A DNA stretch of 30,997 bases from a virus. The notes beneath the pieces are model-generated. The model was not told the origin of the DNA. It searched no databases and was given only the letters and a program-made list of their open reading frames with translations. The position numbers and the translations under genes are program-made. Position 1 is the first letter of the stretch; every line of letters starts with the position of its first letter. The DNA is taken from the IMG/VR virus record IMGVR_UViG_3300027580_000013, positions 1 to 30,997 of that record; one strand, given 5' to 3'. Below are positions 22,996 through 30,825 of the stretch, piece by piece.

Positions 22996-23789
22996 CAGGC
23001 GAATTGCCTTCCAAGTTCCTCAATGCTGATAGTGGACAGGGTGTAGTCGCCGTGACGCACGTTCTTCTTCCAGATCAGCCCGCGCCACCAGAAGTCACTG
23101 ACATCGCGACGGGCGTAGCTCGGGCTGTGTTCGAAGAAGCAACCGGCCACAAGGCCGTGCATGTGCGCGTTGTCGCCTTTACGCGGATGCGTCTTGTAGT
23201 CGAGGACGTGGGAGTGGCCCACGGTGCAGCTTTGGTGGTGCTTCTGGAGAAGCTGGCGCGCTGCATGGGTTCCCCCTACAGGCCGACCACTGACGCCGGC
23301 TGGCAGGTGATGGGCGTACTTGATGCCGTCGATCTCGATGGGGAGCTTGTACTCGACGTACTCGTCCCACCAGTCGTGGAACTCCAGCGCGTCGAGGGTT
23401 AGGAAGCCCTCCAGGCTGGGATGGTCTTCGACGGCACGCTCCACCCAATCTTGGTCGTGGTTGCCTCCCAGCAGGACTGTGCGCGGCTTGTACTGCCGCT
23501 CTTTCCACGCCTTGCGCTGGGCGTTGTACTGCTGGAGAGGACGCCACAGACGCTCTTGTGCATCCTGTACGGCCTCGATGTCGCGGCGGATACGCCCGCC
23601 CTCAGCCTCACGCTTGCCGTGGTGAGGGCAGAGGGAAGGCATATCACCGAGATCACCCAGGCAGATCACCTTGTCGGGCTGCCACTCAACGATAGCCTGC
23701 CCGAGCCAGTCGAAACGCCTGTTGTCGGCCTCCGGGGTCGCATGGGGGTCAGGGACCACCAGATGCGACGAGTGGAGGAGGTTAGTCAT
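22995..23789 (-). CDS. Calcineurin-like metallophosphoesterase
   Basis: A 264-residue protein with the full metallophosphoesterase set: DPH (14-16), GDLGD (45-49), GGNHD (108-112), a later AHH (159-161), and GHSH (191-194), which together bind two metal ions. The substrate cannot be read from sequence; related phage enzymes act on nucleotides, RNA 2',3'-cyclic phosphates or phosphoprotein. The start ATG at 23789 overlaps the HNH stop (ATGA) and the stop overlaps phoH (TGATG), so it is co-translated with phoH. It has no signal peptide, so it should act in the cytoplasm, possibly in nucleotide or RNA turnover. Confidence 0.92.
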   Translation of the reverse strand: MTNLLHSSHLVVPDPHATPEADNRRFDWLGQAIVEWQPDKVICLGDLGDMPSLCPHHGKREAEGGRIRRDIEAVQDAQERLWRPLQQYNAQRKAWKERQYKPRTVLLGGNHDQDWVERAVEDHPSLEGFLTLDALEFHDWWDEYVEYKLPIEIDGIKYAHHLPAGVSGRPVGGTHAARQLLQKHHQSCTVGHSHVLDYKTHPRKGDNAHMHGLVAGCFFEHSPSYARRDVSDFWWRGLIWKKNVRHGDYTLSTISIEELGRQFA

Positions 23790-24178
23790 GCTGCTTTTCT
23801 TTGTCGTTCTCTTTTGCAGGCTTTACAGAGACGCCCGCCTTGCGTCGTAAGTCGGACATTATCGCCGGCTAAACGGTGCCCGCGTTTACAATGTGTTTTC
23901 TTAGCGCCGCCGACGTTGTAGCCTCGGCGAACATTCTCAGCCTGCGTGACAGCTTGCAGATGGTTAGGGTTCACACACGCACGGTTACGGCAGATATGGT
24001 CAATCACCAACGAGCCTGGATCGCCATACACTTCAGCGTAGGCAAGACGATGCGCCCAACATGCGCGGTTCCCTCTATTTATCTGGCAGTACCCATGAGG
24101 TTGATGATGTCGATGTGGTAGAAGCCAACAGTCGTTACTGCTGACCTCTACCTCGTCCCACGGAAAACTACTCGTCAC
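23786..24178 (-). CDS. Free-standing HNH homing endonuclease
   Basis: A 130-residue HNH endonuclease. An N-terminal region (CWLLPH, GYCQINRG) leads to the nuclease core HRLAYAEVYG, then IDHICRNRACVNPNHLQAV (residues about 59-77), with the His/Asn/His metal-binding pattern. The C-terminus carries a second zinc-ribbon-like element, CKRGH and later CKACKRERQR. The start is GTG at 24178, overlapping the ribonucleotide reductase end by 11 nt, and the stop overlaps the next gene as ATGA, so it has been inserted without disrupting either neighbour. It is unrelated to the intron endonuclease, which has a different HNH fold subtype. The likely target is this locus in related phages; endonucleases next to reductase genes are common in phages. 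Confidence 0.92.
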   Translation of the reverse strand: MTSSFPWDEVEVSSNDCWLLPHRHHQPHGYCQINRGNRACWAHRLAYAEVYGDPGSLVIDHICRNRACVNPNHLQAVTQAENVRRGYNVGGAKKTHCKRGHRLAGDNVRLTTQGGRLCKACKRERQRKAA

Positions 24179-27831: not shown

Positions 27832-28067
27832 CAGTTCTGCTCCTGCTTGTAGAAGGGCGTGAGTTCGTCGGCGGCTCGCGTGGCGACCGCTGTGATCGTA
27901 GCGTCCAGAGCCTCCTCGGCTTCGCCAGTCAGGTTCTGGGCTGTGTAAGCCTTCGCCAGGGTCAGCAAGGCGTTGGCGTATTGGTTGGCGAGGGCAGGTG
28001 GGTCGGTCTCCTCAACGCGGGCCTCAGCCTCAGCCTGCAGTTCCTCGGGGGTCGGGCCGTCTTCCAT
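27831..28067 (-). CDS. Hypothetical protein, 78 residues, acidic and helical
   Basis: The ATG at 28067 overlaps the polymerase stop (TGATG) and the stop overlaps the next ATG in the same way. The protein is acidic at its N-terminus (MEDGPTPEELQAEAEARVEE) and Ala-rich throughout, with a pattern typical of two amphipathic helices and no membrane segment. I do not recognise a family. Its place in a tightly coupled cluster between DNA polymerase and exonuclease suggests an accessory role in DNA metabolism, but nothing in the sequence shows this. Confidence 0.75.
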   Translation of the reverse strand: MEDGPTPEELQAEAEARVEETDPPALANQYANALLTLAKAYTAQNLTGEAEEALDATITAVATRAADELTPFYKQEQN

Positions 28068-28680
28068 CAGTGTGTTTCACTCCAGTCGTTTCCGATTTCT
28101 GCGCCGCCACTCAGCGGGCACTTCAGTCCATAGGTTTCGCCGGCCTTCTCGATTGCATCCGCAGCGATGCGGGCCACGTCCTCCGCGATGTCCTCGTCGC
28201 ACTCGATCTGAAACTCGTCGTGGACGTTCAGGACGAACGCATAGTTGGTCCCGCGTAAGTATCCAGCCGCACGAAGATCGTGATCGCACTGCACGAGCGC
28301 CGCCTTCATGACGACGCCGCCCAGGCTCTGGATCAGCGTGTTGGGTGCGGCGTGGTAGCTGCGGATCGGCAGCCGGCGACCATCGAGGCCCCGGAGCCAG
28401 CCGGTCTGCTTCTTGCCGTTCTTGTCTTTCTCGCGGCGCTTGACCGCGTTCTCGACATCGGTGATGAACCGCTCAAGGGCAGGGGTCTCAGCCAGGAACT
28501 TGGCCTTGATGTCCGCACCCTTGATCGTGTGCGCGATGTCCTTGCTGGTCACCTTGCGGTCGGCTTTCTTCAGCCGCTTACGAACCTTCTTCCACTCGTC
28601 GGGACGCTCCCGCTTGAGCCGCTTGATCTCGGCCTTGTCTACGTCCACGACGATGCCGATCTTCTCGTCACCTGCGCCAT
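28067..28680 (-). CDS. T7-type DNA polymerase, exon 2 (end of motif B, fingers and palm, motif C)
   Basis: Exon 2 starts with the last two bases of the Tyr491 codon and continues GAGDEKIG, completing motif B. It carries the polymerase C-terminus, including GLDGRRLPIRS, the segment around NTLIQSLGGVVMKAAL, and motif C (VLNVHDEFQIEC; His-Asp-Glu at residues 644-646 of the spliced protein). The spliced coding sequence is complement(join(28067..28680,29355..30825)), 694 residues. An ATG at 28744 opens an in-frame ORF, but its first 22 codons are intron sequence (P9 region), so it is not the biological start. The stop overlaps the next gene as TGATG at 28067. Confidence 0.95.
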
Positions 28681-29354
28681 CGCTGTGTTCGACTGGAGAC
28701 GCCACTCTCCAGCCCGCCCTCGTAGGGCTGCCCTGTGTTGCCACAGGGGCCAGACCATATCTTCACCCTCGGCCTCGCCGTTAGGGTGCCCCGCTTTTCG
28801 ACCGCCAGTGGCTTGCGGCCTACTCCCGTTATGGGATGGTCGTTGCACCTTCCTTCAAATACTCGACAGCACGTTGCATATTGGTTGTGTTGTCCTGAAG
28901 TAGGCCAAGAGCGCGGTTGCAATTATGGCAAAGCAGTCCGCGTACATGGCCTTCATCGTGACAATGGTCTACTACCAGCTTTAGCTTGTGCTTATTGGGG
29001 TTCATTATAAACCCTTCTCCTCCGCATATCGCGCACACGCCGCCTTGCTGTTCCCAGAGTTCACGGTACTTAGCAAGAGTGATACCGTAGGTGCGAAGGA
29101 AGTAGTTGTGCCACCATCCCTCTTGTTTGCAGTCATCGCCGCAATAGTGGTGGCACGGGGCAGTTGGAGTAAACGTGCTATCGCAAGCGCGACAATTCTT
29201 AGGATTGAAACGCTTGTTTGGATACTTCATTCAGCCTCCTTTGATTGAGGCTATCGAGTATCCGAAGGCTTGGCTCAGGGTTGTCCCAAAGGGAGTTCCC
29301 CTGAATTAACGGGGTTGTTTCCAGTGAGGATTTCCCTCACGGCATCCAGTAACT
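28681..29354 (-). mobile_element. Group I intron (td-like, subgroup IA) interrupting the DNA polymerase gene
   Basis: This 674-nt intron lies between exon 1 (ends with T 29355) and exon 2 (starts with A 28680). P1 pairs exon-end CAUCU with intron GGAUG and has the required U.G at the splice site; the intron ends in G (28681). Core helices are all visible: P2 GUGAGG/CCUCAC (29324-29340), P3 CCCGUU/AACGGG (29308-29313 with 28825-28830), P4 UCAGGG/CCCUGA (29299-29304 with 29275-29280), P7 GACCAU/AUGGUC (28836-28841 with 28753-28758), and a P9 hairpin of 7 bp with a GCAA tetraloop (28731-28748). Splicing restores FIYAFI-YGAG across motif B. A homing endonuclex-type gene, the 28829-29230 endonuclease, sits in the peripheral region between P6 and P7. 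Confidence 0.93.
28829..29230 (-). CDS. Intron-encoded homing endonuclease, endonuclease VII-like (HNH / His-Me finger)
   Basis: A 133-residue protein encoded inside the group I intron. It begins with a zinc-binding pattern, Cys14-X2-Cys17 and Cys30-X4-Cys35, followed by the recombination endonuclease VII pattern: YGIT, QQGGVCAICGG (second CxxC), the nuclease core LVVDHCHDEGHVRGLLC, then HNCNRALGLLQD. In this family the Asp-His pair and Asn bind metal and cut DNA. The likely role is cutting intronless polymerase alleles so that the intron is copied in by repair. The ATG at 29230 follows AAAGGAGG by 4 nt. The last codons encode the 5' strand of ribozyme helix P7, and the stop codon (28831-28829) lies in the P3 3' strand, so translation and RNA folding compete for the same nucleotides. 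Confidence 0.93.
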   Translation of the reverse strand: MKYPNKRFNPKNCRACDSTFTPTAPCHHYCGDDCKQEGWWHNYFLRTYGITLAKYRELWEQQGGVCAICGGEGFIMNPNKHKLKLVVDHCHDEGHVRGLLCHNCNRALGLLQDNTTNMQRAVEYLKEGATTIP

Positions 29355-30825
29355 AGATGAAAGCGTAGATGAACCTCTTTGCCTGATCTCGGCCCGTCGT
29401 ATGCTCGCCATTGATGACGAGCTTCTCGTCGGGATCGAAGCCCAGGCCGCGAGCGTTCAGCGAGTGAACGTCGGTGCGGTCTTCCTTGCTGCCCTCGACC
29501 ACAGTACGGGCGTACTCGCCGCCGTCGTACCGGGCGAGGAAGTGACCAAGGCCGCGAAGCTCCAGGCCGTCCGCGTCCACGCCCACGAGCTTCTTGCCCT
29601 TGGGCACCTTGAACAGCTTGCGAAACTCCTCGCCATACGGCGACTTCGGCTGCGGCACCTGACCCAGGTTCGGTGAGTTGTGCGCGCAGCGGCCCGTCAC
29701 TGTACCGTTGGTCACGACGTAGCCCCGGATACGCCCGTCGCTATCGACGTGCTTCATCAGGGCCTGCTTACCCTCGGCAAGCTGGCCGATCCGCTTGGAC
29801 AGCAGATAATACTCGGCCAGGAGCGGGGCCGGCTCGTAGGGCAGAGCTTGGAGAACCTCGTCGTCTACGGCAGGCTTGCCGCCGTCCGTGAACTTGGTCG
29901 GCTGCCAGCCGTAGAGGGTCTTCAGGCGCTCGGCGACTTGGTCTCGGGACTGCGGATTGAACTCCTGCAGGTAGACCTTGCCGTACTGAACGCCCTGGTC
30001 GTACTCCTCCAGGACCGGGCCGTTGTAGTCCTTGATGCGCTTGCCGGTCTTGGTGGAATACCTGGGCCAGCGGACGTAGCCGAGATCGGGCCGCTTCACC
30101 TTGCGGCTCTTGGTGACGGTCTTCTCCTCGGCGAGCTTCCAGTAGGGCGGGAAGTATTGCTGAAGCTGCTCGCGGACTTCCTCACGCCTGCCCGAGAGCT
30201 TGCCGTACAGCTTGCCAGCAGCGGCTTCATCGAACAGAACGCCATGCTTCTCCTGGGTGTCGATGATCCAGGCGAAGTCATGCTCCAGCTTGATGGAGCG
30301 CCACGGCCAGCGTTTCTTCCTGATCTTGGAGAGCAGCTTGCAGGTGACCGCAACGTCACGCTCGCAGTACCGCTGCATCTCCTCGGTCCACTGCGAGAAG
30401 TCGTGGAAGTCGCCCTTGTGAAAGCCCAGACGCTCGCCCCAGGCTTCCAGGGAATGACGCCCGATGTTCTTGCCGCTGATCTTGCCCTTCTCGTGGAGCG
30501 GGAAGTCGTCCTTCTTCCGCTCGGGCCACATCAGCCGAGCGCAGATCAGGGTATCGAGCAGAAAGCCTTGGGGGTTCCAGTCTGGATAGACCTTCCGCAG
30601 CGCGTGGTAGTCGAACGCGATGCCGTTGTGGAAGGCGAGGTAGTCGGCCTGCAGCAGCCAGTTGAGGCCGTCGCGGATGCTGGGATGCCGCGAGCTATGG
30701 TCCGTGCAGGATAGCTGTTCGCCCGTGTCAGGGTCTCTTACGACGAGCGAGAAGACCTGGGTGAGTTCGTGGAGAAAGCCGTCAGTTTCCGCGTCGGCGA
30801 CCAGCGTCAGGGGTTGGTCGGCCAT
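29355..30825 (-). CDS. T7-type DNA polymerase, exon 1 (3'-5' exonuclease domain, palm motif A, first part of motif B)
   Basis: Family A DNA polymerase of the T7 gp5 type, the replicative enzyme of these phages. Exon 1 encodes residues 1-490 plus the first base of codon 491. Visible motifs are Exo I (Asp11, Glu13 in DAETDGF), Exo II (FHNGIAFD, 65-72), Exo III (YCERD, 153-157), polymerase motif A (VGVDADGLELRGL, 414-426, catalytic Asp417), and motif B/O helix beginning RDQAKRFIYAFI (479-490). Unspliced, the frame hits an intron-encoded TAG immediately after this, so an unspliced message gives a polymerase lacking YGAG, the rest of the fingers and motif C. Joined to exon 2 (28067-28680) the protein is 694 residues, close to T7 gp5 (704). 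ATG 30825 lies 3 nt downstream of the preceding stop. Confidence 0.95.

Follow-up and report, generated by a model that had tools for sequence, protein, structure and literature searches.

What interrupts motif B of the DNA polymerase gene in this virus, how could a whole polymerase be made from the interrupted gene, and why does the interruption lie where it does? The sequence analyzed is an IMG/VR virus record, linear and 30,997 bases long, here called the window. The gene is composed of three parts.

29355..30825, minus strand: exon 1 of a family A (T7-type) DNA polymerase, codons 1-490 and the T of codon 491 (Pfam DNA_pol_A, 4.8e-19; alignment with T7 DNA polymerase)
28681..29354, minus strand: group I intron of 674 nt, IA2-like (RF00028, helices and covariation, spliced frame)
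28067..28680, minus strand: exon 2 of the DNA polymerase, beginning with AT of codon 491, followed by GGC GCA GGT (YGAG) (joined frame, Pfam, intronless homologs)

Upon removal of positions 29354 to 28681 (minus strand), the exons translate as a 694-aa T7-type polymerase with zero stops, and FIYAFIYGAG is restored. Each half of the polymerase matches Pfam DNA_pol_A. In the alignment of the spliced protein, the split codon 491 (T|AT) is equivalent to T7 Tyr530 (numbering counted back from the alignment), or Tyr766 in E. coli numbering. The polymerase is continuous across the junction when aligned with intronless IMG/VR homologs (L004-L052 and others), and the K-to-Y spacing of AK-xxxYAxxYG is unvarying in the 48 intronless relatives that matched a motif search. 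In the unspliced message, an in-frame TAG built with the first two intron bases closes exon 1. An intein was considered and rejected because of the stops in frame and the RF00028 match. The preliminary description of this DNA had placed a group I intron at exactly these coordinates, splitting the Tyr codon 491 as T|AT; both claims hold, and the alignment with intronless relatives that it proposed leaves the polymerase unbroken at the junction. No empty-site strain pair was found because the nearest phage DNA is just 60-80% alike, over partial stretches only. Among the polymerase relatives, L057, L058, L059, L062, L066, and L075 carry an additional stretch of several hundred bases that separates the exonuclease part from the polymerase part.

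The covariance-model search that had also been proposed finds RF00028 at 28731-29381 (minus strand), with 51.6 bits, an E value of 1.7e-10, and coverage of the full model (1-253). The curated gathering cut-off of this family is 50 bits, and the Rfam scan returned no further family at cut-off anywhere in the window. The helices were written by hand and then scored on an alignment of the window intron and 20 homologous introns (n = 21). In the window, standard pairs form throughout P1, P2, P3, P4, P5, P6/6a/6b, P7, P7.1, P7.2, P8, P9, P9.1, and P9.2. The following elements were located from helices and covariation unless another basis is given.

29355..29359, minus strand: P1 exon strand CAUCU, predicted 5' splice site, second target copy
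29343..29347, minus strand: internal guide sequence GGAUG, the P1 intron strand (helices, junction comparison)
29324..29340, minus strand: P2 hairpin
29308..29314, minus strand: P3 5' strand
28837..28841, minus strand: P7 5' strand GACCA, within the final endonuclease codons (covariation)
28789..28795, minus strand: P3 3' strand
28753..28757, minus strand: P7 3' strand UGGUC (covariation)
28731..28748, minus strand: P9 hairpin with a GCAA tetraloop

The 5' splice site of the window is a U.G pair, as in 21/21 introns, and a terminal G closes the intron. P1 consists of 5 bp, CAUCU/GGAUG (exon strand/guide), and its outer pair covaries with the exon as C-G, G-C, or U-A. P3 (7 bp) and P7 are paired in 100% across the 21 introns, and P7 of the window differs from its 20 relatives by a double change from U-A to C-G (columns 663/747). 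Over the whole alignment, there are 222 double-change cells versus 72 in shuffles, and the covariation score is 0.393 versus 0.153 for shuffled alignments, a value reached by 0/500 shuffles; slid controls give 0.06-0.16. The covarying helices include P1, P3, P7, P7.2, and P9. P2, P8, and P9.2 are weaker, with 53-72% of cells paired, and the rest are mostly at 88-100%. The U.G, P1, P2, P3, P4, P7, P9, and terminal G noted in the preliminary description thus all form. Between the P7 5' and P3 3' strands lies UCCC...GGGA-GUA-GGCCGC...GCGGUC, that is, P7.1 and P7.2 with a G-U-A joint, the arrangement on which assignment to group IA2 is based (PMC3428280). By its sequence and fold, 29354..28681 (minus strand) is a group I intron (RF00028), and self-splicing is predicted. 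No convincing P10 was found by eye in the window intron. Two alternative 3' sites that pass simple end rules were discarded, as neither yields the polymerase frame and motif.

The intron encodes a protein, which was absent from the text of the preliminary description.

28829..29230, minus strand: homing endonuclease of 133 aa, Endonuclease_7 / DHHRN type (Pfam PF02945, 4.1e-23; PHROG endonuclease VII families; invariant residues)
29235..29240, minus strand: AGGAGG, Shine-Dalgarno sequence of the endonuclease gene, placed 4 nt ahead of the ATG and predicted to lie in the hairpin GCCUC...GAGGC

The DHHRN homing endonuclease family is defined in PMC6083498, and the window protein belongs to this Endo VII-type group, since its Endonuclease VII domain contains all of D, H, H, R, and N. 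In the alignment, D88, H89, H91, R97, and N103 are invariant among the endonuclease relatives, as are the CxxC pairs, and the reading frame is intact, with its catalytic and zinc residues. The founder of the family, F-CphI of cyanophage S-PM2, has the Endo VII catalytic motif (PMC6083498). The window endonuclease shares those catalytic residues; F-CphI is free-standing beside a psbA intron, whereas the window gene lies inside a polA intron. The GC content of the endonuclease gene is 50%, compared to 62% for the exons. The gene is located between the P6 strands, and its last codons encode the P6 3' strands and the P7 5' strand; an overlap between the endonuclease frame and an intron core strand is also seen in Pf-WMP3 (PMC3428280). 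The predicted hairpin around the Shine-Dalgarno sequence has a fold z of -2.7. At 29200-29280 (minus strand), the P6b 5' strand GGAUACU could pair either with the 3' end of the endonuclease gene (P6b) or with GAAGUAUCC at its start codon, which adjoins the Shine-Dalgarno-masking hairpin. This alternative pairing could be a switch between translation and splicing, or it could be a coincidence.

The intactness of these parts bears on whether the intron is still functional. A decayed element that is non-mobile or splices poorly, with the polymerase made as two pieces or from rare spliced mRNA, is a very improbable explanation. It would fit the truncated protein that the TAG gives from unspliced mRNA, as well as the rival P1 partner located 12 nt upstream, which pairs comparably when taken by itself. 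It is at odds with core helices that are all intact and covarying, an endonuclease frame that keeps its catalytic and zinc residues, and a perfect exon frame and motif, and complementation by two peptides split in motif B would probably be hard.

The relatives of the endonuclease also point to a mobile element. Its best tblastn matches in phage records are in Bas93, Jarilo, Kpp-61, IME184, LUZ24, PAK-type, and Felix-type phages, with identities of up to 58%, and they lie within split polA genes of unrelated phages. In each phage region opened, the endonuclease gene sits between two DNA polymerase halves. A profile search of IMG/VR added 80 more loci, and in about half of them the gene again splits polA. 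The preliminary description had regarded the insertion as homing-type, and an encoded Endo VII/DHHRN-type endonuclease whose nearest relatives reside in split polA bears this out. On these sequence comparisons, the element is with high probability a mobile intron of group I (IA2-like) that carries a homing endonuclease of Endo VII/DHHRN type, and its family inserts into motif B in phage polA genes. In the proposed mechanism, the guide GGAUG would pair with exon CAUCU to form P1, a step that covariation supports, and the ribozyme would then cut after the U of codon 491. Joining of the exons is predicted from the frame and structure to remove 674 nt and regain FIYAFIYGAG. The endonuclease would be translated from its hairpin-masked ribosome site. 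Given its family and the recurrent association with split polA, the endonuclease would presumably cleave intronless polA near motif B, and repair would copy the intron in.

At 23 loci, an uninterrupted polA is followed directly downstream, at a gap of -1 to 116 nt, by a gene related to the endonuclease (L104, L122, L127, L129, L131, L136, L138-L140, L142, L145, L147, L151, L152, L159-L161, and L163-L168). This suggests that endonucleases of this type are directed at polA also where no intron is involved, in intronless or collaborative homing around polA. Two introns of the same family, L174 (335 nt) and L180 (251 nt), both at the 529/530 border, are too short for an endonuclease and have no match to it. 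With some introns lacking an endonuclease and related endonucleases free-standing beside uninterrupted polA, the family is good material for tests of how group I introns gain their endonucleases and move to new insertion sites.

Phage introns of this kind have been described before. Pseudomonas phage LUZ24 has a group I intron with the endonuclease VII gene gp35 in its DNA polymerase (Ceyssens et al. 2008, as cited in PMC6083498). It resembles the window in gene, motif, endonuclease family (54% identity), core helices, and a GGATG guide with TTCATCT, but its insertion is in the codon equivalent to Tyr526, which puts it 12 nt upstream of the position taken in the window. PMC6083498 lists Endo VII-type genes for LUZ24, Berlin, and YpP-G (DNA polymerase introns) and for EC6, JH2, and others (intron-encoded). 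Escherichia Bas93/Bas94, Pectobacterium Jarilo, Klebsiella Kpp-61/IME184, and the PAK-type and Felix-type phages likewise have a homologous endonuclease in polA motif B and, where compared, a homologous intron core. Their insertions lie elsewhere than Tyr530: at Tyr526 in Bas93/94, Phe524 in Jarilo, and codon 528 in Kpp-61, PAK, and Felix. A homologous core and endonuclease in polA motif B characterize the LUZ24-type family, and the window has both. Its site is 12 nt downstream of the commonest one in the family (T|AT of Tyr526), which varies between members and is not a defining feature. The intron-endonuclease pair of the window is thus of an already known polA family, and its unusual feature is the exact position. 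The preliminary description had judged such an intron in a phage of this kind worth documenting; it is less novel than supposed, given the known polA introns of LUZ24, Berlin, and Felix-like phages (PMC6083498). In the literature searched, with several primary papers outside the search, no statement of the exact motif-B sites of the family was found. The introns of Pf-WMP3 (I-PfoP3I), SPO1/SP82/Bastille (I-HmuI and others), phiI/W31 (I-TslI), and phiL7 are likewise group IA2 introns that carry homing endonucleases in phage polA genes. In Pf-WMP3, phiI, and W31, the endonuclease gene lies in P6a, and P7.1 and P7.2 of Pf-WMP3 are joined by GUA (PMC3428280). Unlike the window intron, the Pf-WMP3/SPO1/phiI/phiL7-type introns lie outside motif B, at polA sites 674, 676, and 881 in E. 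coli numbering (PMC3428280), and their endonucleases are classical HNH rather than Endo VII/DHHRN.

Annotation and automated searches represent the family poorly. With the curated RF00028 cut-off, 0/11 family loci were recovered in one set (L078-L088) and 1/11 in a second (L080-L157); at E 0.01, 9/11 loci of the second set match. The related loci are missed by Rfam because the curated cut-off is strict, and automated Rfam scans under-count this polA intron family. The EC6 record labels its intron endonuclease (L087, 3884-4366) 'DNA polymerase I'. The Jarilo, Kpp-61, and LUZ24 records (L079-L081) are among several in which exon 1 is annotated as a frame that runs on past the junction into intron sequence, with exon 2 beginning at an internal start.

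To compare insertion sites, junctions were placed by requiring that U ends the exon, G ends the intron, and the motif spacing is constant, and sites are given in T7 residue numbering. Forty-five distinct introns were placed: 28 at T|AT of Tyr526 (including LUZ24, Bas93, and the majority of IMG/VR loci), 9 at codon 528, 4 at Phe524, 3 at the 529/530 border, and 1, that of the window, at Tyr530. Seven further introns lie at the 529/530 border (ten in all), and in this larger set, too, T|AT of Tyr530 is occupied by the window intron alone. When IMG/VR was scanned by pattern for other introns at exactly this site, two chance matches emerged, neither in a polymerase. The same scans with Leu in place of Ile found introns at the 529/530 border, one nucleotide off the window site. 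About 50 related introns are thus spread over five positions in a 17-nt span of one codon run, with the guide fitted to each position. The window intron by itself is one more member of a widespread polA-targeting family, and this family-wide site pattern is the more useful result.

The local sequence suggests how the window's position could have arisen. The window exon reads TTCATCTACGCT-TTCATCT|AT, and the motif is coded TTCATCTACGCT TTCATCTATGGC. Through the F-I-Y-A-F-I-Y-G motif, the target TTCATCTA is present in two copies at a spacing of 12 nt, and it is the second that precedes the intron. A second F-I-Y-G copy occurs in 0/48 of the intronless relatives that matched the motif search.

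29367..29373, minus strand: first 7-nt target copy TTCATCT, 12 nt upstream, a possible competing 5' splice site and the intron place in most relatives (LUZ24, Bas93, L089)

Such a repeat could also mislead assembly. A mis-join in an IMG/VR contig, for which reads for checking are absent, could hide in the repeat and disguise a true insertion at Tyr526. We consider this artefact extremely improbable, since assembly of the contig would have required reads containing both junctions, GCTTTCATCT|AGTTAC and AACACAGCG|ATGGCG, and a 7-nt repeat should be below the usual assembly word length.

The window and the Tyr526 class have the GGATG guide and the P2 hairpin in common, though the guide match is not independent evidence, as the exon sequence in part dictates it. 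The intron core nearest to that of the window is L089, of the Tyr526 class, at 68%, and the L089 polymerase is top-scoring among the intron-bearing ones (40.8%). In one tree, the window and L089 group with support of 86/91, which is gone in the next tree with more rows; constraining the two together is not rejected (p 0.44). Branching among the endonucleases is too shallow for their tree to place the window. The intron most likely derives from a relative of the Tyr526-site introns, which either inserted directly at the second target copy or slipped onto it, and a 12-nt shift from the Tyr526 class, taken alone, is somewhat favored by these sequence comparisons.

Kinship with the 529/530-border class, in which local changes of position and guide followed insertion with no 12-nt jump, is unlikely, though it has some points in its favor. 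Ten family introns lie at this border, 1 nt from the window's site, and exon 1 of L175, a border-class locus, is at least as similar to that of the window (43%) as the L089 polymerase. A clade of the window with the border introns costs 33 log units, at p 0.06, short of formal rejection. The border introns differ from the window in exon (TTCCTT), guide (GAGG(AA/C)), and the P2 hairpin, which is absent from most, and their cores are less like the window's.

The first target copy may also be recognized by the guide. As bare helices, the two candidate P1 pairings are close, at -2.5 and -1.3 kcal/mol, and in the computed local ensemble the upstream pairing is favored. The upstream TTCATCT was rejected as the normal splice site: four residues would be lost, against the constant K-to-Y spacing of the 48 intronless matches. 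Its use in some splicing events is a real possibility. A stronger proposal, offered tentatively and with more doubt than confidence, is that the intron relocated by exactly 12 nt, a distance of four codons, from the usual site to the second copy of the F-I-Y-A/F-I-Y-G target, leaving two competing 5' splice sites. In that case, use of the upstream site would produce an in-frame deletion of four O-helix residues (QAKRFIYGAG, with Y-A-F-I lost), and the choice of splice site would determine whether the polymerase made is active or inactive. Motif B, with introns at Phe524, Tyr526, 528, and 529/530, would then be a natural archive of how one intron family hopped between neighboring sites. The window offers a natural two-site splicing substrate.

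A second homing-type gene is present in this genome at 23786-24178 (minus strand). It is a free-standing HNH_3 endonuclease of 130 aa with a GTG start (Pfam HNH_3, 8.6e-13) that adjoins the ribonucleotide reductase gene and is unrelated to the intron endonuclease.
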